Origin: a virus
DNA length: 64,000 bases
IMG/VR virus record: IMGVR_UViG_3300027754_005993
Location: 1-64,000 of that record
Reading direction: 5' to 3' (one strand)
Shown here: piece by piece, positions 1 through 10,400 of the stretch
How the letters are laid out: each line of letters opens with the position of its first letter
Numbering within the stretch: position 1 is the stretch's first letter
The notes under the pieces: model-generated
Databases searched by the model: none
The model's input: only the letters and a program-made list of their open reading frames with translations
What the model was told of the DNA's origin: nothing
Position numbers and translations under genes: made by a program

Positions 1-540
1 ATGAAATCCTTTAAGCAATTCATTACCGAAAATAAAAATCCATATTGGTTTCGTGGACCAAATAAAACGGTAGACTTGGCAGTCTTTCGGGATCATCCAG
101 AGCATGGTAAACAAGTTCTATTGATCCAAAGAAAAGAAGGAACAACTGAGGGTGGAAAATTTGCCCTTCCTGGTGGGTTTATCAATACATCTACTAAAAA
201 GGGAGAAGTCTGGGAAAATGATCATGACACAGAAACTCCACACGAAGCAGCATTAAGAGAAACTGCCGAAGAGACTGGACTTCAATTGAATATGAAGGAT
301 CACGGACATCTAATACACCATGTCGGAGTTTATGAAGGTGGTGGAAGAGATCCTAGAGATAACCCAGAGGGTTGGTCAAAATCTCACGCATTTACTATGA
401 CCATACCACATACACAAGGAAATGAAGTTCGTGGAATGGACGATGCTGTTGGAGCGTCTTGGCATAGTATAAATAAATTACCAGAATTAGCATTTGATCA
501 TGCTAAAATATTATCAGATGCAATGAGAGGCACAAAATGA
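1..540 (+). CDS. Capsid-targeted Nudix hydrolase, ADP-ribose pyrophosphatase-like
   Basis: 179 aa. Residues 1-10 (MKSFKQFITE) match the T4 capsid-targeting sequence form, ending in an I-x-E prohead-protease site. The rest is a Nudix fold: PGG at 57-59, first box Glu at E78, then REtaEEtGL at 86-94 (R86, E87, E90, E91, G93). About 13 extra residues separate the box Gly from E78. RDPR (116-119) and LAFDH (163-167) are hallmarks of the ADP-ribose pyrophosphatase/NrtR-type branch, so the likely reaction is ADP-ribose to AMP plus ribose-5-phosphate; the substrate is inferred. First gene of the CTS cassette; its stop overlaps the next start (ATGA). A mature enzyme starting at N11 would be packaged and injected. 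Confidence 0.88.
   Translation: MKSFKQFITENKNPYWFRGPNKTVDLAVFRDHPEHGKQVLLIQRKEGTTEGGKFALPGGFINTSTKKGEVWENDHDTETPHEAALRETAEETGLQLNMKDHGHLIHHVGVYEGGGRDPRDNPEGWSKSHAFTMTIPHTQGNEVRGMDDAVGASWHSINKLPELAFDHAKILSDAMRGTK
468..475 (+). promoter_or_regulatory. Candidate T4-type late promoter inside the Nudix gene
   Basis: Exact TATAAATA. With T4 geometry (-13 to -6) transcription would start near 481, giving a 56-nt leader before the gene at 537. The match is short and the region AT-rich, so it may be chance. Confidence 0.35.
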
Positions 541-1052
541 ATCTAAAACAATACTACAAACAAATATTAAAAGAAATGACAGAGTCTAATACAGATGAAA
601 GAATGGAAAGAGCAGCGGCAGATATTCATAAATCTTGGATGGAAAGACCTGGAAATGAAAAAAGTGACTGGAATGCTGCTCAACATAAGCCATATGAAGA
701 ACTTCCAGAATCAGAAAAAGATAAAGACAGAGCACACATTAGAATACTTCAAGGACTAATGTCAAATGATTCTTCTATCGGACATATGATATCATCACCT
801 GAGCATCATGAAAAAATTGCTGATGTTATGGGAGAAAAACTTCATAACGATTGGTGGTTAAATTGGAGATCAACTGCTCCACAAGAAGAATTAAATAAAC
901 CAAGAATGAGAGCAAGACTTGGACCTGATGGTGTTAAATCTATGGTAGATGTTAACCAACCATGGGAAAAATTAGGACCAGCAGGACAATATGATAATTA
1001 TCAAGCAGGCCTCGCCGCTGTAAAGGCATACAAAAAACATTTCTTATCATAA
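537..1052 (+). CDS. RyR-domain-like protein with variant capsid-targeting N-terminus
   Basis: 171 aa. Residues about 25-72 (AADIHKSWM ... PYEELPESEKDKDRAHIRIL) follow the bacterial/phage RyR repeat pattern: IHxxWM, then a [YW]xxLPExxKxxxR segment and a helix. RyR domains are thought to bind ligands and occur in nucleotide-based conflict systems; the ligand here is unknown. The N-terminus MNLKQYYKQILKE is a looser relative of the neighbouring CTS, with L-K-E as a possible cleavage site. The start overlaps the stop of the Nudix gene by ATGA, implying translational coupling. Pairing of an ADP-ribose Nudix with a RyR protein is suggestive but not proof of a shared pathway. Confidence 0.65.
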   Translation: MNLKQYYKQILKEMTESNTDERMERAAADIHKSWMERPGNEKSDWNAAQHKPYEELPESEKDKDRAHIRILQGLMSNDSSIGHMISSPEHHEKIADVMGEKLHNDWWLNWRSTAPQEELNKPRMRARLGPDGVKSMVDVNQPWEKLGPAGQYDNYQAGLAAVKAYKKHFLS

Positions 1053-1061
1053 ATCAATTTA

Positions 1062-1100
1062 ATGAAATCCTTTAAGCAATACATTACCGAAGATGATATA
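1062..1100 (+). repeat. 39-bp CTS-coding direct repeat, copy 1
   Basis: Identical over 39 nt to 3817-3855; both encode MKSFKQYITEDDI. Copies at 5777-5808 (32 nt identical) and 1-30 (one mismatch) share most of it. Similarity stops abruptly after the tag, while the downstream proteins differ. Confidence 0.9.
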
Positions 1101-1712
1101 GAACTTGTTTCAGTGCCACGCGGTGTACGCACAGCGTTGAAAAAAGCAGATGATGAATTCAAAGACACTCCCAAGAGGAACCTTGGCGAGATCACTCCAG
1201 GTTATTCCATTCACAAGGCTGGTGGAGACTTCTACATCACTCACGATTCAAGCAAGAAGGTAGTTGGGCATATTGCAAATGAGACTCCTCACAAGAGCAG
1301 AGATCTTTTGGTGCAAAAGATAATCATTCATCCCGAACATACCGCAAAGGTCATTGGATATTCTCTTCCAGTAGCAGCATACAAGCATCTTTGGGATCAT
1401 CATGGTTATGAGATCACAAGTGATTATGAGCATAGTTTAGGTGGTCTAAAGATATGGCATAATATCATTGCTGATCCTGATACCAGTAAGCATGTCCATG
1501 CTATACATCATCCATATGGCGGGAAGAAGACAGACCTTGGTCTAGCGAGTAAGTTGCCAACGAGCGACATATGGTTATCGGGTAGTGCGGGAATGAGACG
1601 CAAAGCGAGAAGGAAGGGCGTGCAAGTAGACAAGCTTGCAATGATTGGAGATACCCCTATTAATAAAGCAAGCAATGTTAAGCTTGTGTTGAAGAGAAAG
1701 ATAAAGAAATGA
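1062..1712 (+). CDS. Capsid-targeted GNAT-like protein
   Basis: 216 aa. Begins MKSFKQYITE (I-T-E cleavage predicted after residue 10). The central part, IIIHPEHTAKVIGYSLPVAAYKHLW (about 87-111) followed by S120-D-x-x-H124-S-x-G127-G128-x3-W132, resembles the second half of phage GNAT folds, where a long helix is followed by a strand with a SDxxxT/SxGGxxxW signature. The classical acetyl-CoA loop is not clear, so activity is uncertain. The same spaced motif recurs in the gene at 3817. The tail is Lys/Arg-rich (RRKARRKG; KRKIKK), which could bind nucleic acid. No good Shine-Dalgarno sequence is visible. The ATG codon overlaps nothing upstream (9-nt gap). Confidence 0.7.
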   Translation: MKSFKQYITEDDIELVSVPRGVRTALKKADDEFKDTPKRNLGEITPGYSIHKAGGDFYITHDSSKKVVGHIANETPHKSRDLLVQKIIIHPEHTAKVIGYSLPVAAYKHLWDHHGYEITSDYEHSLGGLKIWHNIIADPDTSKHVHAIHHPYGGKKTDLGLASKLPTSDIWLSGSAGMRRKARRKGVQVDKLAMIGDTPINKASNVKLVLKRKIKK

Positions 1713-3802
1713 AATCCTTTAAAAATATTATTTTGCAAACATTACTTGAGACTAAAAGAATCGTTATATCTGAAAGTGCAAAAGATGATGCATTTTTTTC
1801 CCGATATGCAAAAATACACGAGTCTCATCCATTAATTGCTGCAAATCCAACAGAAGCAAAAAAAAGAATATTGTATGTAAAACCATTCGCGGCAAATCAC
1901 GATGAAGCAACATACTTATCAAACGCTGCTTTACATAATCACTATAGAGTTGGAGAAGATGATCTTGCAATTACCAATACTTTAAAAAGATGGAGAAAGT
2001 CAAAGAAAGAGGGTAAAATTTCTGAAAATATGGCAGACTTTACTCATAATAAATTAAATGAAAGATTAAATGAAATTGATCCTCCAGATTATGATGTAAA
2101 TAATTCCTCTAAAACAGAGCAACCTGGAGGATCTGTTCCAGAGCTTCAAAAATTTCATATCGGAAATTTTTCAGATCCCAAACATGGAAATCTTTCTGTT
2201 TATCATCTTGGACCAGATCACTCCGCAAAAGAAGCAAAGATCTTTCGCACAAAACTAAAAACAAACTCTGCTCAGAATTGTAATTGGTGTGTATTGGATA
2301 GTCCAAGTTTTTTGCAGAAATATAGACAAGGACATGGATTTTTTGGATATGCAAATAATAAAGGAAGATTTGTGGTTGCACACGGAAACGGGGATCGTGG
2401 AATTGTAGACCCCTTTAATACTGTTATGACTGGAAAGTCCCGATCTCATATAGTTGATAATACAGAAAAATTATTAGACAAGTCTTATGGACCGAATCAT
2501 GCAATAACTAAGGACTATGAAACAGCAAATGGTACTGATTTGAAACGATTAACTCCAAGTGAAGCAATTCAAAGAATTGACACTCACTTAAGTAATTATA
2601 ATGACCTAAGTTATCATGATATAGTGGATGAGATCCCGACTGACCAAGAAAAATTTCATAATATATCTGACCATTTTGCTTCCAGTCCTGATACTCATCC
2701 AGAAATATTAAAAAAACTGTATGTAGCACATATGAGTATGGGCGATAGTGGAAAATATGAGTTTCCGTTCGTGAGTGATACTCCTCGTGAAGACAATGAG
2801 CAAAAAATTCATCAAATAATAAATCACAAAAATGCTCCATCAGATCTTATTCATCATTATTTAGGAATTCATCCAAATCCAGAATCTACAACACCCTCAA
2901 TTAATGATCGCGACCACGATGATGTTCATTGGGATACTGTTAACAAATTTATAGCAAAATCTCCAAAAATAACAAAACAAATGGCTCTAGATGTAGTAGA
3001 TAAAAGTGAGGATGGATATCATAACCCTGATAGTAATATGCATGAAATGGGTAGACAAATGATACAGCATCATGCAATTCGCGAACCAGAAATATCTAAA
3101 ATAGTATCAGATAGGATAAGAGATGATAATCTGATGAAGATCAGGCACGAAGAAGAACAATTCTCTAAGCACACGGGAGATTCCCAGTTTCCTTCACCAT
3201 TTGAACATGCTATGCATAGTAAATATTTTAAACCACATCACGCTAAACAAATAATTCAAGGTTTTCTTGACAAAAAAGTTACCCCAACCGATATGTCTCA
3301 TCTTTTACATTCGGATATACATGCAACTAATGAAGATTTACATAAAATATATGATAACTTCGAAGAAGTTCCAGATGAAAATGATGAAAATAGAACAAGT
3401 TATGTTTCTGCAATTAGAAGTTCTGTATTAGATCATCCAAATTTTATTCCATCAGAAAAGCAAAAAGAAAATATGTTTTTGCATAATGAACAACACTCAT
3501 TCCTTAAACATAAAGCTCTTAGTAAACCTTGGATAACACCAGATCATTTGGATCTTGCAATAATGGATTCTGATCCGAGTATAAGAGAAAAAGCATATTC
3601 TCATCCAAGAGCAACTCAACAGCACATGCAAGAATTAAAAAAAGAAGACTCAAGAGACTTTTTACATACGCAGTTTGATACTGGTTTTAACAATTTTAAC
3701 AAACGGAGAGAAAGTATAATATCAGATTTTAATTTAAGAAATAAAATAAAGGATGACATTACTACTGTCGTTCGTAAAAAAGCAATTCAAAGACCATCAT
3801 AA
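1709..3802 (+). CDS. Large capsid-targeted internal protein, alpha-helical repeats
   Basis: 697 aa, the largest cargo of the cassette. Starts MKSFKNIILQTLLE; L-L-E (12-14) or I-S-E (20-22) could be the protease site. Residues about 185-240 contain NCNWCVLDSPSFLQKY, then GFFGYANNKGRFVVAHG and DPFN, a WC...Y...G-hydrophobic pattern seen in other phage proteins of unknown function. From about 270 onward there are loosely repeated helical units built on HP motifs (for example SHPRATQQHMQEL and DHPNFIPSEKQ), reminiscent of variant leucine-rich/HEAT-like repeats. The start overlaps the upstream stop (ATGA). Codon use is strongly AT-rich. Function unknown; a large injected effector is an inference from the tag. 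Confidence 0.75.
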   Translation: MKSFKNIILQTLLETKRIVISESAKDDAFFSRYAKIHESHPLIAANPTEAKKRILYVKPFAANHDEATYLSNAALHNHYRVGEDDLAITNTLKRWRKSKKEGKISENMADFTHNKLNERLNEIDPPDYDVNNSSKTEQPGGSVPELQKFHIGNFSDPKHGNLSVYHLGPDHSAKEAKIFRTKLKTNSAQNCNWCVLDSPSFLQKYRQGHGFFGYANNKGRFVVAHGNGDRGIVDPFNTVMTGKSRSHIVDNTEKLLDKSYGPNHAITKDYETANGTDLKRLTPSEAIQRIDTHLSNYNDLSYHDIVDEIPTDQEKFHNISDHFASSPDTHPEILKKLYVAHMSMGDSGKYEFPFVSDTPREDNEQKIHQIINHKNAPSDLIHHYLGIHPNPESTTPSINDRDHDDVHWDTVNKFIAKSPKITKQMALDVVDKSEDGYHNPDSNMHEMGRQMIQHHAIREPEISKIVSDRIRDDNLMKIRHEEEQFSKHTGDSQFPSPFEHAMHSKYFKPHHAKQIIQGFLDKKVTPTDMSHLLHSDIHATNEDLHKIYDNFEEVPDENDENRTSYVSAIRSSVLDHPNFIPSEKQKENMFLHNEQHSFLKHKALSKPWITPDHLDLAIMDSDPSIREKAYSHPRATQQHMQELKKEDSRDFLHTQFDTGFNNFNKRRESIISDFNLRNKIKDDITTVVRKKAIQRPS

Positions 3803-3816
3803 TTTAAATTAAACAA

Positions 3817-3855
3817 ATGAAATCCTTTAAGCAATACATTACCGAAGATGATATA
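3817..3855 (+). repeat. 39-bp CTS-coding direct repeat, copy 2
   Basis: Second copy of the repeat at 1062-1100; the identity ends exactly at the codon after MKSFKQYITEDDI. Confidence 0.9.
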
Positions 3856-4587
3856 ATGGGTGGTCATGACCCCAATAGCACCATTAGTATTCATCGTAAA
3901 AAAGGATCATTAATCCCCAATCTGAACTCATTGGTTGCCAAGATAGGAAATGTATTTTCTCCAACCGAAACTACTCAAACATTGAAGTTGGATGATAATC
4001 ATCATATTCACATAGACCATGACAAAGAACGCAGTAGAATGTCAGTTCGTCTGATGTCCAGTAAACCTGGTCATGAAAAATCACCATTGATGACTTATCA
4101 CGCAAGTCATTGGGCCCAAGAAACTATTTCAACACCAGATGGCAAGAAGGTGGAAATGTATAGCGGGACTCCCCAAAAGGCGAGAACTGATGTTCGTCGA
4201 GGTGTTGTTAAAGTTCCTAAGAATTTCTTTCATGCTATTGTGAATGCTACTGGTGTTGGCATCATGTCTGGTGGAAGTCAAACTAAGGGTGGAGTCAACA
4301 TGTGGAGAAAAGCAGTTCGTCATGGACACGAAACAGGTCACTCTGTTGAATCTATACATGAAATAGGTCCAAGATTCGCCAGTTCATATCAGATGATTGG
4401 AAGAATCACTCCAAGAAATTTTCAGGATGCCTATAATCTTGATGTTAGCACAAGAAAAAAAGGAAACACATCCAGTGTTCCAAGAATGTTTAACCACATA
4501 GACCCCGAGAATCCCAAGCATCGACCTGGTGTCACTAGAGTCTTTACTCGTCTTGTGGTTCTTCCCAAGAAGGAAAGCATTCAATGA
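3817..4587 (+). CDS. Capsid-targeted protein with GNAT-like motif
   Basis: 256 aa. The first 13 residues (MKSFKQYITEDDI) are encoded by DNA identical to that of the gene at 1062. Residues 151-163 carry S-G-G-S-Q-T-K-G-G-V-N-M-W, the same spacing as S-D-Y-E-H-S-L-G-G-L-K-I-W in the 1062 protein; phage GNAT-like proteins often show this S-x3-[QH]-[ST]-x-G-G-x3-W signature. The rest is not recognisable. His-rich stretch NHHIHIDHDKE at 61-71. There is no clear ribosome binding site. It ends overlapping the next ATG by 4 nt. Probably packaged and injected; enzymatic activity not established. Confidence 0.68.
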   Translation: MKSFKQYITEDDIMGGHDPNSTISIHRKKGSLIPNLNSLVAKIGNVFSPTETTQTLKLDDNHHIHIDHDKERSRMSVRLMSSKPGHEKSPLMTYHASHWAQETISTPDGKKVEMYSGTPQKARTDVRRGVVKVPKNFFHAIVNATGVGIMSGGSQTKGGVNMWRKAVRHGHETGHSVESIHEIGPRFASSYQMIGRITPRNFQDAYNLDVSTRKKGNTSSVPRMFNHIDPENPKHRPGVTRVFTRLVVLPKKESIQ

Positions 4588-5771
4588 AATCCTTTAAACA
4601 AATATTGTGGGAGGCAGATTCTAGCGAACCTGATATTGATCGTGATCCACCACCAGCGCGTTTTCCAGGAAAAAAGACAACTCCACCTTCACCTCCAAAC
4701 TTAAATCATCTCGAATATAAAGATCGAATTGCTGTAGAACACAAAGCGGTGTTACATGAGATTGGGATGAGAAAAGACATAGCGAGTAAATCATGGATGG
4801 GAGCGAGGGGAGAATACAAAAAAGTTTCGTCTCCTGATCATCATATTCACACGATATTGAGCAACCCCGAATTCTTTGATACCACCCATACAGAATTAGA
4901 AGGCCTTGACCCTTTGGCAGCACATGGCAATTGGTCGAATAAAATAATGGAGCATATTGGCAAGAAGGGATTTCTTCGAGTTGCCAATAACTCAATTGCA
5001 TATCCTGATCCATCTCAACCAAACATCATGCATGTATATCATGTTTATAGCGTTTCTCATCATGGTTGGAATGGAGACAATTCATCCTTCGTGGAACCTC
5101 TTAAGCATATACGAAATAATATCACTAAGCACATGAATACACCAACTGATCGGGTAATGATTGATTTACATGGTGGAGCAGGAGGATTTGGATTATCATT
5201 TACCCCTCATACTAGACATATATTGAAATCGGTAGAGGATATAGATGATTTCATAGCATCCCCTCCCCCGAGATACGAAGAGTTTCAAAGAAAATCACGC
5301 GATAGAATTGGAACTCTTCCTGAAACACCACGCATTCCTAATTCCACAGAGATTCGGGACCTTATTCCAAAGACTCCACCAGCTGATTCTATAGTGCCAC
5401 AGGCTATATGGAATAATATGAGAAAACTTGGAGACTCCTACCAACCTCTACGATCCTTTTCATCCTTTATACAGGAAGAGAAAAAACAACAGACTCTTGG
5501 TAATCATGTCAGTATTAAATTGAATGATCCAGAGGCACATGTATGGGTCGCTCGAAGTGGGTCCACTAAATCAGTAGGAAGTGTCACTAAAGAATTCTCT
5601 CCTCATCACTTTGGAGTGACCGTGCGAAACACAGATACATTAGATCCAAAATATCTTTATTACATGCTACAACATGTACATGGGTCTAAATATTATGAAG
5701 GGTTGGCGAATGGCGCAACCAGTCTGGTTCATATCAAGAGAGAGCATATTGCCAATATACCAATAGGATGA
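4584..5771 (+). CDS. Capsid-targeted protein with HsdS-like recognition domain
   Basis: 395 aa. CTS variant MKSFKQILWE (L-W-E site). The middle (about 95-230) has an alpha/beta domain ending in SVEDIDDFI that looks related to the corresponding part of the protein at 7935. The last 90 residues (306-395) resemble half of a type I restriction specificity subunit: GNHVSIKL near the beginning, a central variable part, then LDPKYLYYMLQHV, LANGATSLVHIKREHIANIPIG, matching the HsdS pattern yLyYxL...G-x-T/A....I....l..ipIp. No methylase or translocase motifs are present. A lone TRD on an injected protein suggests a decoy or inhibitor of host restriction, which is inference. AAGGA 9-13 nt upstream, inside the previous gene, may serve as ribosome binding site. 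Confidence 0.7.
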   Translation: MKSFKQILWEADSSEPDIDRDPPPARFPGKKTTPPSPPNLNHLEYKDRIAVEHKAVLHEIGMRKDIASKSWMGARGEYKKVSSPDHHIHTILSNPEFFDTTHTELEGLDPLAAHGNWSNKIMEHIGKKGFLRVANNSIAYPDPSQPNIMHVYHVYSVSHHGWNGDNSSFVEPLKHIRNNITKHMNTPTDRVMIDLHGGAGGFGLSFTPHTRHILKSVEDIDDFIASPPPRYEEFQRKSRDRIGTLPETPRIPNSTEIRDLIPKTPPADSIVPQAIWNNMRKLGDSYQPLRSFSSFIQEEKKQQTLGNHVSIKLNDPEAHVWVARSGSTKSVGSVTKEFSPHHFGVTVRNTDTLDPKYLYYMLQHVHGSKYYEGLANGATSLVHIKREHIANIPIG

Positions 5772-5776
5772 GTTTC

Positions 5777-6484
5777 ATGAAATCCTTTAAGCAATACATT
5801 ACCGAAGAGGCAGATCCTGAAGGTGTTTTGATTCACGGAAATAAGATCATCGTCGGTGTAACACATGAGACTCCTATTCGTATTGCTGATTCACAATTAA
5901 AAACAAAGATTCAACAACACGGAATGAACCATGGATTTTACTACGAAGGTAAACCTGGTCCTGATATAAAACAATCTGATCTGGGACTACACGATGTAAG
6001 TGACTATAAGGGTGGGTTTGATGAAGTGAGACTTCAGCAACAAAAAAGATCTCAGGATATCAAACCACATAACCTTTCCCTGATATTTGGAAATGTCAAT
6101 ACAAACTGGGGTAATGGTATTTCGGATCATTTTAAGTCTGGTACTGTCTTTGACGGTATTCATTCCTGGGCAAGAAGTCACTTTGGAGACTTTGTGACTC
6201 CAGAACATGTTTCTGGCTTATTGAAAGCAGCAAGTGAAAATACAGATCATGATTTTTTATCTCTGGCGAAAAAGACTCCAGCTGCCAGTGGAAAAGAATT
6301 CTTAGGGAAGATAGAAAAAATTGCATGGCCTGACGATTGGGCAACGAAGAAAAGAACTGCTGGTCCTGAAAAATTGGTGGATGCCGAGACACAAGAACGC
6401 GACACACACCTAATCCATCATATGCCAGCAGGAGTCTATGTTATTGGGGGTGGGCATTTGAAATCAATAAATAAAGTTATATAA
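5777..6484 (+). CDS. Capsid-targeted protein of unknown function
   Basis: 235 aa from ATG 5777, chosen over the ATG at 5768 because it begins exactly with the tag MKSFKQYITE; AGGA sits 9-12 nt upstream. No known domain recognised. The body is mixed alpha/beta with short motifs HGNKIIVGVTHETPIRI (about 20-36) and a C-terminal HHMPAGVYVIGGGHLKS. The tag's DNA is identical to that at 1062 for 32 nt. Ends 8 nt before the next CTS gene. Cargo role inferred only from the tag and the context. Confidence 0.7.
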   Translation: MKSFKQYITEEADPEGVLIHGNKIIVGVTHETPIRIADSQLKTKIQQHGMNHGFYYEGKPGPDIKQSDLGLHDVSDYKGGFDEVRLQQQKRSQDIKPHNLSLIFGNVNTNWGNGISDHFKSGTVFDGIHSWARSHFGDFVTPEHVSGLLKAASENTDHDFLSLAKKTPAASGKEFLGKIEKIAWPDDWATKKRTAGPEKLVDAETQERDTHLIHHMPAGVYVIGGGHLKSINKVI

Positions 6485-6499
6485 GACGCATCATGAAAT
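6481..6499 (+). repeat. 19-bp junction repeat, copy 1
   Basis: The sequence ataagacgcatcatgaaat spans the stop of one gene and the start of the next. An exact copy occurs at 6948-6966, again bridging a stop and a start. It brackets the 6493 gene like a cassette boundary. Confidence 0.8.
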
Positions 6500-6951
6500 C
6501 CTTTAACCAATTCATTACCGAAGTAGTAAGTTTTAAAAATAATTCTTCATGGGCATTATCTCCATCGCATGGATTTGAAATAAAACCATCTGGTACTAAA
6601 GAACATCCAGATCTTTTTAGACATTTGGATTTTATGGGTAGAGAATCTAAAGTATCTTCGTTTTCGCGTGGTCCAAAAGAGCGTGCAACAGCATGGGGAA
6701 GAGTAGATCCTGATAATAAAGTTGTTCACATTATAACACAGAATGGAGGGCTGTCTCCTAATCGACTTTCTAGAGGATTAGAAAATGATGTATTTGCAAG
6801 ATTGGAAGCTATAGAACATCTTAAAGAACGATATCCAGACTATAGAGTTCATGTATCGGGTGGTTGGGATTTTGTAGGAAAACCTACAATTGTTACTCAT
6901 GGGTATTCAGAACACGAAAAACATTTGACAGGTATGCTAAGACAACCATAA
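6493..6951 (+). CDS. Capsid-targeted small protein, unknown function
   Basis: 152 aa. Starts MKSFNQFITE with an I-T-E site. The remainder (basic patches, RGPKERATAWGRVDPDNKVVHIITQ near 55-80, then a helix LEAIEHLKERYPDYRVHVSGGWDF) is not recognised; the pattern of a strand, a long helix and a strand fits a small alpha/beta fold. It is bracketed by two identical 19-bp junction sequences, suggesting it was gained or duplicated as a unit. Weak ribosome binding site only (AAGA). Confidence 0.65.
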   Translation: MKSFNQFITEVVSFKNNSSWALSPSHGFEIKPSGTKEHPDLFRHLDFMGRESKVSSFSRGPKERATAWGRVDPDNKVVHIITQNGGLSPNRLSRGLENDVFARLEAIEHLKERYPDYRVHVSGGWDFVGKPTIVTHGYSEHEKHLTGMLRQP

Positions 6952-6966
6952 GACGCATCATGAAAT
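6948..6966 (+). repeat. 19-bp junction repeat, copy 2
   Basis: Exact copy of 6481-6499. Here the ATG leads into a signal-peptide protein instead of a CTS protein, although both begin with ATGAAAT. Confidence 0.8.
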
Positions 6967-7250
6967 ACTTAATACTTGTTCTGGTTCTTTTGTTCACTCG
7001 TCCTTCTATGGGAGAGACTATAATTCTTCCCGTTCAAGACCTTCTATATGAGGTTCCTAACTTTACCAACGCTCCCAAGTTCAATCTTGGTGCAGCGATC
7101 AATGGTGAGGTTGTGTTAGAGACACCCAAGAAAATAACGAGAAAGTCCAAACGGGAAATAGAGAGAAATATTATAAATATATTATGGGAAGAATATCCCG
7201 ATGCTCAGAGCATACGAATCTGGCATGGAAATGTAATAATAAAAATATGA
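6960..7250 (+). CDS. Small predicted exported protein
   Basis: 96 aa from ATG 6960; an upstream in-frame ATG at 6864 lies inside the preceding gene and is unlikely. The N-terminus MKYLILVLVLLFTRPSMGET is a typical Sec signal peptide with cleavage likely after SMG. The mature part is short, with a basic helix KKITRKSKREIERNI and the end IRIWHGNVIIKI. It is the only cassette member with an export signal instead of a capsid tag. The role is unknown; it may act in the envelope. It overlaps the next start by ATGA. Confidence 0.6.
   Translation: MKYLILVLVLLFTRPSMGETIILPVQDLLYEVPNFTNAPKFNLGAAINGEVVLETPKKITRKSKREIERNIINILWEEYPDAQSIRIWHGNVIIKI
7172..7179 (+). promoter_or_regulatory. Candidate T4-type late promoter
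   Basis: Exact TATAAATA inside the exported-protein gene; predicted start near 7185, 62 nt before the CTS gene at 7247. The setting is AT-rich, so a chance match is possible. Confidence 0.35.
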
Positions 7251-7927
7251 AGTCATTTAAAAACTATCTAACCGAATTACGCGCGAATCCTCATCAGGAT
7301 GATTTTGGTGCTGAGCATCTTGCAGAATTTTATAATAAATTACAAGATAGAATGCATGAAACTCCATATTCGCACCCCGACACTCATGGGTCGTTTCAAT
7401 TTCCCAGTATGCTACATGCGCTTGAATCAATGCATTCCTCAATTGCATATGCATCAGTAATGGATGGTGCTCCTCCACATTTAGCAAATGTCAAAGAGGT
7501 TGGAAATAAACTAGCATCAAGTGCAGTAAATTTTTATGGTACTATAAAACCACATCTCAATTCTGTGCTTACCCAAGTTAAATCTGAATATCCTGCCACA
7601 CATCCAATACACAGTATGTCCAATAATATGTTATTAAATGGGTTCATGATAGCACATGGCAATGCTGCGCACGAAGATCTAAGGCACAATGCTAGTATAA
7701 TTGAAATAGCTGGTGGTTCACCAGAAGATGGGCAAGTAGAACACCATGTCATAAATCATATTCTTAGAAATTCCCGTGCCATTGGGACTGCTTTGGAAAA
7801 ACACCCACATCAATTTATTTTTAATGGAGCTGGAGATTCGTTAACACATCCTGATACGACTCCTCCCGCAAAGTTTGTTCCAAATATTCCTAGACCACAA
7901 GATCCTACTCCACCCAATAATAACTGA
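7247..7927 (+). CDS. Capsid-targeted helical protein, unknown function
   Basis: 226 aa from ATG 7247, which overlaps the previous stop and gives the tag MKSFKNYLTE (L-T-E site). An earlier in-frame ATG at 7184 would bury the tag. The body is largely helical and His-rich (HSMSNNMLLNGFMIAHGNAAHEDLRHN about 125-150). The C-terminus is Pro-rich (TPPAKFVPNIPRPQDPTPPNNN), suggesting an extended tail. No family recognised. Translation is probably coupled to the upstream gene since no ribosome binding site is visible. Confidence 0.68.
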   Translation: MKSFKNYLTELRANPHQDDFGAEHLAEFYNKLQDRMHETPYSHPDTHGSFQFPSMLHALESMHSSIAYASVMDGAPPHLANVKEVGNKLASSAVNFYGTIKPHLNSVLTQVKSEYPATHPIHSMSNNMLLNGFMIAHGNAAHEDLRHNASIIEIAGGSPEDGQVEHHVINHILRNSRAIGTALEKHPHQFIFNGAGDSLTHPDTTPPAKFVPNIPRPQDPTPPNNN

Positions 7928-7934
7928 TAAAAAT

Positions 7935-8894
7935 ATGAAATCTTTTAAGCAATGCATCTTAGAAACATCAGAGCAAAAACCTCTAAGTGATACTTTTTTC
8001 ATTCATAAAAGTGGAAAACTTATTGAAGCGACAAAAACGCCATTAGAGTCTCAATTTGCAGATCATGCTTATATTCCATTCACTCAACCACACGATTTTG
8101 GAATGACTGAAAACCAAATGGATGATTTGACAAACTTTAGCGATCAAGAAAAATTACATTTATATAAGACTGGAAGTGCTCCATATGAAGGTCGTATATT
8201 TCACCAATTATCTGAAAGAGGATTTCTAAAGGGAGTCCATTGGGATCAGTCGGATACTAAAACACATAAAATTAGATTGGAAGCTGCTACAGGTTCTCAT
8301 GATACTCGTCATGGTATTGAAGACATGAGTGAAGCAGTAAGAACATTGAGATCTAAAATTCCTGAAGGGCATAAGGCACAGATATTTATAGAAGGCCTTA
8401 GGTATCATACATCAGCGGATCTTGGTGAAAAACCAAGAACAAGATTAAGTGAAGACCACATAAAGGACTTAATTACTCACGGTAGAGTGCGCTTTCAAAA
8501 TGTCGAGGAGTTGGATAGATTTTTGGGTAACAGCACCAAAGTATCTAGAGATCCAGGATCTGGTGTAGATCAAATTCCATCTCCAGAGGAAGCGAGAAGA
8601 AAAGCAGGAGATACTGGTGAACCACCATCAATTCAACGAGGAAGATTCTTTAAAAGCGAGTCTTATAATCATATGAAGTCGTTCAAGGACTTTCTATCTG
8701 AAGATGAAATTGAACCAGTGAAACCAGTGGTTCCCATTCGACCAGACCCTCCCAAGAGAAAGCAACCGTATCCAAAACCAAAACCTGGGGAGAAGGAAAC
8801 TGAACTTCCTGTACTTCCTGAGAGAGAACCCGATAGATTTGATCCAACCAGGGACTTTCCAGAGTTCAAACCATATAAAAGAAATGCCAACTAA
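7935..8894 (+). CDS. Capsid-targeted protein with second internal CTS
   Basis: 319 aa from ATG 7935 (tag MKSFKQCILE, I-L-E site). The body has a domain similar in layout to the middle of the 4584 protein: RGFLKGVHW, a helix AVRTLRSKIPEGHKAQIFI and VEELDRFL. At residue 247 a complete second tag, MKSFKDFLSE, appears in frame. If gp21 cuts both sites the product is split into a 236-residue cargo and a 63-residue Pro-rich acidic tail (EPVKPVVPIRPDPPKRK and so on). Either this is a fusion of two CTS genes or the second start is used independently. Confidence 0.72.
   Translation: MKSFKQCILETSEQKPLSDTFFIHKSGKLIEATKTPLESQFADHAYIPFTQPHDFGMTENQMDDLTNFSDQEKLHLYKTGSAPYEGRIFHQLSERGFLKGVHWDQSDTKTHKIRLEAATGSHDTRHGIEDMSEAVRTLRSKIPEGHKAQIFIEGLRYHTSADLGEKPRTRLSEDHIKDLITHGRVRFQNVEELDRFLGNSTKVSRDPGSGVDQIPSPEEARRKAGDTGEPPSIQRGRFFKSESYNHMKSFKDFLSEDEIEPVKPVVPIRPDPPKRKQPYPKPKPGEKETELPVLPEREPDRFDPTRDFPEFKPYKRNAN
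8673..8894 (+). other. Possible internal in-frame gene starting at the second CTS
   Basis: ATG 8673 lies in the same frame as the 7935 gene and would give a 73-aa protein, MKSFKDFLSE plus a Pro/Lys/Glu-rich tail. No strong ribosome binding site lies at normal distance (GAGGAAG is about 25 nt away), so a fused protein processed by protease is equally likely. Confidence 0.4.
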
Positions 8895-8928: not shown

Positions 8929-9582
8929 ATGAAAAACTATTCTAAAAATTATTTTAAGACAAAATTCACTCAAGATGTTCTGGGTGAAGAAGTTGACAAT
9001 TCAACAAAAATCTTGATTAATGACGCAATTACTAAACATAATAATATCAACGAGGGATATAATCCTTACGGTCGTGATCGTGGTTCAGTAACTACAGACG
9101 CGCGAGTTGAATATATTAAAGAATTTACTAATTTTATCCGAAAGGAAATAGGAGATTCTGATATATCATGGACAACTGCTAAATCCATTCATAACGAATT
9201 GCTTGAACAATCAAATCAAAATTTAGTGAATTCATCCTATGTTTTTAATTTTATGGATTTTATAAACTCAGAAACAACAAAAAATTTATTTGAAAATGAA
9301 CAACATGAAGAAAAGAAAGCTTCGTTTAAAGACGATTTAAACGAATCCATTGATATGGGTGTAAGAAAACCAGATGAAATTGTATTGACATCGCATGGTG
9401 ATAATTTTTCTAGAAGAGATATACTGCATAACGCAGCGAATAATCTTGAACATCATATGAATAAACCCATAAATCAAAGAAGTAAGACTGATACGCATAA
9501 GCTTATAGCAACAATGAAACGATATTTGCCATCCGATAATGTTGCTGCTCTGATCCACAAGCATTTTCCAAATCAGAACTAA
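8929..9582 (+). CDS. Unknown protein ending the CTS cassette
   Basis: 217 aa, own late promoter and a good ribosome binding site (AAAGGGA). The N-terminus MKNYSKNYFKTKFTQDVLGEE is not a close CTS match, but L-G-E at residues 18-20 would suit the prohead protease, so it could be an internal or core protein with a longer leader. Mostly helical, Asn/Lys-rich, with EHHMNKPINQRSKTDTHKLIATMKRYLPSDN near the end. No domain recognised. Transcription ends at the strong hairpin immediately downstream. Confidence 0.6.
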   Translation: MKNYSKNYFKTKFTQDVLGEEVDNSTKILINDAITKHNNINEGYNPYGRDRGSVTTDARVEYIKEFTNFIRKEIGDSDISWTTAKSIHNELLEQSNQNLVNSSYVFNFMDFINSETTKNLFENEQHEEKKASFKDDLNESIDMGVRKPDEIVLTSHGDNFSRRDILHNAANNLEHHMNKPINQRSKTDTHKLIATMKRYLPSDNVAALIHKHFPNQN

Positions 9583-9596
9583 AGAAAAATAACTAG

Positions 9597-10052
9597 TTAA
9601 CCGAAACACCCAAACTTAACAGGTTTGGGTGTTTTCTTTAAAGGCATGGTAGCTTCAGTCGGAGTCTTATCACCCTTTTTCCGATTGCACTTTAGGCAGC
9701 AAGTCACGACATTCTTCCACTCATGTTTTCCTCCACGGCAACGGGGAATAACATGATCTATTGTTGCTGTATCGGAATCTAACTTGACAGAACAATATTG
9801 GCAGGTATAATCATCACGCTTAAATACATTCTTGCGTGACGAACTTATTTCCTTATATGGAATATTCACATATTTTTTTAAAGCGAGGTGGAGCGGTAGT
9901 TTGAATATACCACTACTGGTACGGATCTCAGCAAACTCGTCTTCTGTGCAGGGGGAAACTTTTCCCTTGAGCAGCAAAACAACAGCGTGCTTCCAATCTA
10001 TTTCCAGTAATTTCTGGTACGATACATTATATAAAGAAATTGATTTTATCAT
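9597..10052 (-). CDS. HNH endonuclease
   Basis: 151 aa on the minus strand. The C-terminal half has the zinc-bound HNH form: YTCQYCSVKL, ATIDHVIPRCRGGKHEWKNVVTCCLKCNRKKGDKTPTEA, that is CxxC, DH(V)IP, GGxHxWxN and CxxCNxxKGD. These enzymes cut DNA; the phage ones act in genome packaging, homing or host DNA attack, and the role here is not determined. The N-terminal 80 residues are a separate domain often found with this HNH type. It faces opposite to its neighbours and is flanked by a terminator and a divergent promoter, like an inserted unit. Confidence 0.9.
   Translation of the reverse strand: MIKSISLYNVSYQKLLEIDWKHAVVLLLKGKVSPCTEDEFAEIRTSSGIFKLPLHLALKKYVNIPYKEISSSRKNVFKRDDYTCQYCSVKLDSDTATIDHVIPRCRGGKHEWKNVVTCCLKCNRKKGDKTPTEATMPLKKTPKPVKFGCFG
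9604..9639 (+). terminator. Bidirectional terminator
   Basis: Perfect 12-bp stem (9604-9615 with 9623-9634), 7-nt loop, followed by TTTTCTTT on the plus strand and a T-rich stretch on the minus strand. It ends the CTS cassette rightward and the HNH gene leftward; it overlaps the last codons of the HNH gene. Confidence 0.85.
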
Positions 10053-10068: not shown

Positions 10069-10097
10069 TTGACATACATACTGCTGTGTGGTATAAT
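10069..10097 (+). promoter_or_regulatory. Consensus sigma70 promoter
   Basis: TTGACA at 10069-10074, 17-bp spacer, TATAAT at 10092-10097: perfect host consensus, predicted early promoter for the acidic-protein operon. It is divergent from the HNH gene. Confidence 0.9.
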
Positions 10098-10115
10098 AGA
10101 AAAACTGGAGCAAAT

Positions 10116-10400
10116 ATGAACGACGAAAAATATGTTTATTATAAAGTAAATTTCAAATCTCCAAATATTTTATCCATCGACGATGATGAGGATTGGGAAG
10201 ATCTTGAAGAAGATACCCATTCCGATGATAATCTAGATGAAGAAGATGAAGATCTTGACGAAGATGACGACGACGATGAAGAAAATTGGGATGACGATCT
10301 AGACGACGACGAAGATGATTGGGATGATGAGGATGAGGATTGGGAAGATGATGAAGAAGACGAAGATGATGAAGATGATGAAGAAGATCCACTTGGATGA
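10116..10400 (+). CDS. Poly-acidic early protein, possible DNA mimic
   Basis: 94 aa from ATG 10116 (GGAG upstream). Residues about 20-91 are almost entirely Asp/Glu with regularly spaced Trp (DWEDLEED, ENWDDDL, DDWDDED, EDWEDDEED). The N-terminus (NDEKYVYYKVNFKSPNILSI) looks like a short folded strand region. It is the first gene after a perfect sigma70 promoter. Phage proteins with surface-wide acidity (for example T7 Ocr) mimic DNA and block restriction enzymes or nucleoid proteins; that function is inferred from composition alone. Low-complexity repeats of GAT/GAC/GAA make this region prone to slippage. Confidence 0.75.
   Translation: MNDEKYVYYKVNFKSPNILSIDDDEDWEDLEEDTHSDDNLDEEDEDLDEDDDDDEENWDDDLDDDEDDWDDEDEDWEDDEEDEDDEDDEEDPLG

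Follow-up and report, generated by a model that had tools for sequence, protein, structure and literature searches.

Introduction

In type I restriction enzymes, each recognition domain (TRD) of the specificity subunit (S, HsdS) associates with one M subunit (HsdM), and neither S nor M by itself binds DNA (PMC3874165). Dimers can also form from truncated S genes (PMC3874165, PMC6158711). In bacteriophage T4, the capsid-targeting sequence (CTS) is a 10-residue signal in which positions 4, 7, 8 and 10 are those that matter, and the protease gp21 cleaves after [L/I]xE; the propeptide of T4 gp23 comprises 65 residues, and the internal protein IPI is an injected inhibitor of restriction (PMC9026906). 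DarB of phage P1 also has an N-terminal packaging signal (PMC9024508).

Here we describe a gene that brings these two subjects together. The DNA analysed, called the window below, comprises 64,000 nucleotides, i.e., positions 1 to 64,000 of the IMG/VR record IMGVR_UViG_3300027754_005993, a T4-like virus of 117,772 bases whose structural genes include gp21 and gp23. A preliminary description of the window had proposed that the gene at 4584-5771 encodes a capsid-targeted half of an HsdS TRD, lacking methylase and nuclease parts, which either competes with host HsdS for HsdM/HsdR or shields sites on entering DNA.

A compact HsdS-type TRD at the C-terminus

The gene is an open reading frame of 395 codons on the forward strand at 4584-5771, the start of which shares 4 bases with its upstream neighbour (Table 1). 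As judged by sequence profiles and structural models, the C-terminal domain of its product is an HsdS-type TRD of about 95 residues. PADLOC profiles, AlphaFold and Foldseek all agree on the HsdS resemblance proposed earlier for the C-terminal ~90 residues: the window domain matched Specificity_I best (E 3.7e-7), along with mad5 (E 5.6e-7), and the 38 family members searched matched 57 PADLOC families, of which the 25 listed were all specificity subunits or MAD5. These matches mostly covered the final ~95 residues of one TRD. Structure prediction, for which the lack of a TRD fold had been named beforehand as the refuting outcome, yielded a TRD fold (pLDDT 91.3, pTM 0.81). In a Foldseek search of the PDB, the top match of this model was the Mycoplasma genitalium S subunit 1ydx (E 3.5e-4, TMq 0.70), followed by the S subunits 7eew, 8w0p, 7vru and 1yf2, with the CamA methyltransferase further down; among viral models, the top match beyond the family was an adenine-specific DNA methyltransferase. 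The fold was also matched by Esub1 in PDB entry 8vsr, crystallised with the phage protein Prx (TMq up to 0.68), for which our literature search found no paper.

The HsdS signals in the sequence itself are modest. Pfam Methylase_S (PF01420) matched neither the window protein nor any of the 38 family members, and single-sequence hhalign comparison with six host HsdS proteins gave weak alignments in the expected register. No Pfam family matched the 395-residue protein, Pfam and NCBIfam offered no usable family across the 38 members, and a sequence search of the PDB did not find an S subunit. DUF6943 was discarded as a family assignment, being weak (E 0.003 in 11 of the 38 members). One PHROG that has no assigned function matched residues 326-394 (E 2.8e-5).

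The best alignment spread 95 residues over 129 columns, which indicates a compact TRD with deletions. The resemblance to a TRD therefore stands, and "half a TRD" is better replaced by a compact one that lacks, on the N-terminal side, about 45 of the ~150 residues of a TRD; we call it a mini-TRD. The window protein carries only one TRD (residues 299-395), unlike HsdS with two per chain, and its reading frame stops at the last TRD strand, so that the conserved alpha-helical (dimerisation) regions of HsdS are absent.

Table 1. Parts of the TRD gene and the CTS cassettes surrounding it, in window coordinates
Feature	Position	Strand	Evidence
CTS cassette, NUDIX hydrolase cargo	1..540	+	Pfam NUDIX E 1.4e-14; CTS
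CTS cassette, cargo unnamed	1062..1712	+	CTS
CTS cassette, cargo unnamed, overlaps TRD gene start	3817..4587	+	CTS
CDS, 395 aa: CTS, middle region, internal CTS-like motif, mini-TRD	4584..5771	+	ORF; 94% homologue L003
N-terminal CTS MKSFKQILW-E, gp21 cut predicted after Glu10	4584..4613	+	CTS matrix score 28.6; predicted helix 4-10
Middle region, residues 11-288	4614..5447	+	alpha/beta core about 130-240, partly low-confidence (AlphaFold)
Second, internal CTS-like motif LRSFSSFIQ-E (residues 289-298), gp21 cut predicted after Glu298	5448..5477	+	
Mini-TRD, residues 299-395	5478..5768	+	profiles, AlphaFold, Foldseek
CTS cassette, cargo unnamed, in stretch missing from L003	5777..6484	+	CTS
CTS cassette, cargo unnamed, in stretch missing from L003	6493..6951	+	CTS
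CTS cassette, cargo unnamed	7247..7927	+	CTS
CTS cassette with second complete in-frame internal CTS MKSFKDFLSE	7935..8894	+	CTS

Predicted capsid targeting and release of the TRD

The first ten residues of the protein, MKSFKQILWE, fit the T4 pattern and end in L-W-E (residues 8-10), a gp21 motif, as expected of the CTS variant suggested previously. A gp21 protease is encoded in the same record (Peptidase_S77, E 4.9e-32, record position 64687-65331), as is gp23, in which LFE occurs at residue 63, close to the length of the T4 propeptide. A second CTS-like sequence, LRSFSSFIQE, adjoins the TRD within the protein. It is like the N-terminal CTS at positions 4, 7, 8 and 10, and a position-specific CTS matrix scores it 26th among the 37,291 windows of the record; AlphaFold places a short helix (292-298) beside a low-confidence linker, as at the N-terminal CTS. 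The nearest tree neighbour of the window TRD (L019; support 96/90), found in another phage with MKSFK-type starts, is a plain CTS-proline linker-TRD protein. Given this sister and the internal motif before the TRD, two cassettes appear to be fused in the window gene, and because the motif lies directly before the TRD, gp21 could release the domain as a product of 97 amino acids (predicted 10.8 kDa, pI 9.3). If correct, this arrangement points to an ability of gp21 to release several cargoes from a single polypeptide.

Similar signals accompany the domain in other phages. CTS-like starts such as MRANEFITES, MRFTEIISES and MKINEVLTES precede it elsewhere, and the density of CTS-like gene starts is 25 times higher at viral TRD loci than at bacterial and plasmid control loci. 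Peptidase_S77 was present in 8 of 14 TRD-bearing phage records, in 7 of them above the cut-off. A hydrophobic-x-Glu site lay within 20 residues after the domain in all 22 fused copies with a tail, and before it in 27 of 35 internal or N-terminal copies (11 of 17 for internal copies alone), against a background of 0.38 in each case, counts that come from related sequences and whose binomials ignore relatedness. Read from their sequences, phage mini-TRDs sit behind capsid-targeting peptides and are bracketed by protease-type motifs. The window gene thus appears to load a TRD into the virus head, and the TRD probably enters the host together with the phage genome; the earlier proposal of a capsid-targeted lone TRD is backed by the sequence and the fold, by the architecture of the family and by the gp21 protease in the record. 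Packaging is deduced here from sequence, and the alternative is a protein that stays unpackaged and whose N-terminal motif is incidental. We consider this alternative very unlikely in view of the tandem genes with near-identical CTSs described below, the presence of gp21 together with the gp23 cleavage-type site, and the high density of CTS-like starts around viral TRD loci.

A variable array of CTS cassettes

The TRD gene lies in an array (window 1-8894) of tandem genes that start with MKSFKQ(Y/F)ITE or variants of it and whose start DNA is nearly identical. Since the NUDIX hydrolase at its beginning bears a CTS, this enzyme is possibly packaged in the virion as well, and the last gene of the array (7935-8894) is likely another fused cassette encoding a two-cargo chain. 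The window showed no clear enrichment of late promoters of the T4 type (TATAAATA). Just beyond the array, a CTS-like motif (KASFKDDLNE) occurs internally near residue ~130 of the product of 8929-9582; an HNH-like motif, CQYC...DHVIPRCRGG...CLKCN, possibly of a homing endonuclease, is encoded on the reverse strand at 9597-10052, beside the array; and 10086-10400 is an extremely acidic reading frame with long Asp/Glu runs.

Apart from its own sequence (L002, 100%), the 395-residue protein has a single full-length relative in IMG/VR, L003 (94% identical), which also holds the only full-length relative of the middle region. Two cassettes of the window (5788-6957) have no counterpart in L003 (L003:3447-3459), which indicates that the array gains and loses cassettes, and the cassettes seem, from sequence comparison, to recombine at the near-identical CTS DNA. 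Between the window and L003, dS was 0.213 in the TRD and 0.048 in the middle region (Fisher test on synonymous differences, p about 0.001-0.003), a difference that suggests exchange of the TRD module. The dN/dS of the TRD was 0.33, i.e., purifying selection. Positive selection on the TRD was not supported, given a dN/dS below 1 and a higher dS that suggests exchange instead.

These values also bear on the idea that the protein mainly serves head morphogenesis or fills the head, with the TRD fold as a leftover. T4 IPIII offers a precedent, being a CTS protein that affects head assembly (PMC9026906). However, the TRD is under purifying selection, single-copy and conserved across very different fusions, and the domain is also found on plasmids, which have no capsids; we therefore regard such a role as quite unlikely.

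The mini-TRD family in viruses, plasmids and prophages

In IMG/VR, residues 305-395 on their own matched further contigs, and an alignment-based search found at least 113 uncultured-virus stretches that encode the domain, from which we conclude that the domain stands by itself. No credible match was found among 50,697 isolate phage records. Each of 14 phage records contained one copy, and a repertoire of many TRDs per phage was rejected on this ground. The family, whose conservation extends from plasmids of Pseudomonas to giant phages, has its own conserved motif, N-FPDADFW-R. Its members are mildly basic (median pI 8.8; 9.3 for the window copy), and a role as a DNA mimic was rejected because they are not strongly acidic.

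Outside phages, the mini-TRD alone constitutes an unnamed gene of 95 amino acids, present in 268 plasmid records, on 11 E. coli plasmids and on bacterial contigs of several phyla. Of 32 standalone loci (some near-duplicates), 29 had a partner gene of ~136-146 amino acids, mostly 40-80 bases downstream; this partner was lacking at the window and giant-phage loci. The N-terminus of the partner (PSIEEQQRI) matches the junction between TRD and helix in HsdS (one of four members tested; best PADLOC match 7.3e-5), and its C-terminus is, judged by eye, HTH-like. The TRD gene ends where the HsdS match of the partner begins, and the pair reads like a split HsdS with an HTH-like tail. In the standalone operon (L103:5925-6753 and matching stretches of L092-L121), a palindrome, for example TAGGCGCAATGCGCCTA, surrounds the promoter and is followed by a conserved leader hairpin before the ATG (GGUGGCA-CAGAAAGCCACUCG-CGAG-GGCUAG-UGCCACC), the TRD gene and then the partner. 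Rfam at gathering thresholds contained no family for this leader RNA. Antirestriction or anti-CRISPR genes lay within ~7 kb of the operon in 5 of the 15 contexts viewed, a number that has no control count; on one Pseudomonas aeruginosa plasmid (L113:9106-9761), acrF and acrF3 occur ~3 kb from the operon. Methylase_S was present in 4 of 7 host genomes that bear a plasmid or prophage mini-TRD. On sequence grounds, stand-alone mini-TRDs represent an undescribed family derived from type I specificity subunits and present in phages, prophages and plasmids.

Possible targets of the putatively injected TRD

The record contains no HsdM-type family (N6_Mtase, PF02384), in accordance with the earlier remark that methylase parts are missing, with the proviso that such records may be incomplete. 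Among the 14 TRD-bearing phage records, a single marginal N6_Mtase match was seen. This one match is what could speak for a TRD that gives specificity to a phage-encoded methyltransferase; the window's record and 13 of the 14 gave none, within the same limit of completeness, and we rejected a methyltransferase partner of the phage's own, giving it hardly any credence. Because HsdM is rare in these phages and each has one TRD copy, the expected targets of the TRD are host factors or DNA.

If the TRD acted on DNA, it might shield restriction sites of the entering genome, as had been suggested. Its fold would suit this role, and it would come in with the DNA. Yet one conserved TRD could fit one half-site only, type I sites vary from strain to strain, and the strong conservation of the motif across very different hosts, from Pseudomonas plasmids to giant phages, is difficult to reconcile with such variable sites. 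In addition, S subunits require HsdM to bind DNA (PMC3874165). Shielding is therefore disfavoured, and we hold it to be highly improbable.

The main rival to docking on HsdM-type complexes is plain DNA binding, in which the injected protein would bind a conserved short sequence or DNA in general, and would steer early transcription or organise DNA, with no relation to restriction. TRDs recognise DNA, the family is mildly basic, and the strongly conserved N-FPDADFW-R motif suggests one conserved target; the HTH-like C-terminus of the plasmid partner and the palindromic promoter element in the operon point in the same direction. On the other hand, DNA binding by known S subunits depends on HsdM (PMC3874165), the net charge is small, and the phage copies have no partner. 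Overall, we regard this explanation as unlikely.

Docking on HsdM-type complexes is preferred over site shielding in light of the association of TRDs with M subunits, the inability of S or M alone to bind DNA, the spread of the domain on mobile elements and the virion-borne antirestriction of T4 IPI and P1 Dar. According to this proposal, the gene product would be a T4-type internal head protein that its N-terminal CTS carries into the prohead, where gp21 would cut after Glu10 and probably also after Glu298. These cuts would release a folded, mildly basic TRD of 97 residues to be ejected along with the DNA. In the host cell, the TRD may dock on HsdM-type subunits as a look-alike of one S-subunit TRD, and block or alter the host type I or a related methyltransferase/restriction complex, either as a decoy or by Ral-like switching, so that the incoming phage DNA would be protected. 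That a packaged, gp21-freed and injected TRD protects DNA by docking on host HsdM-type complexes is our main reading, to which sequence, structural models and analogy together lead us to assign a probability of roughly 0.42. The decoy for HsdM/HsdR envisaged at the outset is plausible by analogy, being consistent with the plasmid and prophage spread and with published virion antirestriction (T4 IPI, P1 Dar). What counts against docking is that the mini-TRD is without the conserved helices that hold S subunits together, that its sequence resemblance to HsdS is modest, and that no more than the 4 of 7 host genomes mentioned above have Methylase_S.

A broader proposal is that mobile elements share an undescribed anti-restriction class consisting of a TRD detached from HsdS. 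Phages would deliver it pre-made, released by gp21 from cassette polyproteins, and plasmids and prophages would produce it from an operon that also encodes the HsdS-helix/HTH-like partner and that has a structured leader RNA; both would jam or hijack host HsdM-type complexes. In this full form, the proposal is doubtful.

Comparison with known systems

The mini-TRD shares the TRD fold and the late-TRD sequence motifs with HsdS and with MAD5 of MADS. It differs from both in being a single TRD that has no conserved helices and lacks the N-terminal TRD residues mentioned above, in having no adjacent HsdM/HsdR, in its position behind a capsid-targeting peptide, and in its own N-FPDADFW-R motif. Half-HsdS subunits likewise consist of a single TRD as a separate chain; they keep a conserved helix, whereas in the plasmid mini-TRD operon the start of the helix is encoded by another gene, fused to an HTH-like domain.

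With T4 IPI, IPII, IPIII and Alt, the window locus shares the 10-residue CTS, the [L/I]xE site, a gp21-type protease and an array of unrelated cargoes. In contrast to the T4 internal proteins, the cargo fold here is a TRD, which a second, internal CTS-like site could free; IPI targets enzymes of type IV, and no derivation of it from HsdS is known. The Dar proteins of P1 (DarA, DarB, DdrA, DdrB, Hdf and Ulx) are a virion-packaged defence against type I restriction, with sizes very different from that of the mini-TRD, and the likeness drawn here is one of description. Lambda Ral and Ocr/ArdA are small mobile-element proteins that act on type I complexes (PMC3874165), as is proposed for the mini-TRD; Ocr and ArdA mimic DNA, whereas the mini-TRD is basic and S-like rather than DNA-like.

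Whatever its function, a conserved family that has no Pfam model and is encoded by 113 or more viral stretches and by 268 plasmid records merits naming. If the proposed role is true, T4-like and giant phages inject a piece of bacterial restriction machinery that is also a widespread gene of plasmids, still unnamed and present on clinical conjugative plasmids among others, and the mini-TRD offers a small, specific target for the question of what CTS cargoes of T4-like phages do. CTS cargoes and HsdS-derived domains are each known kinds, of which the capsid-targeted mini-TRD would be a variant.
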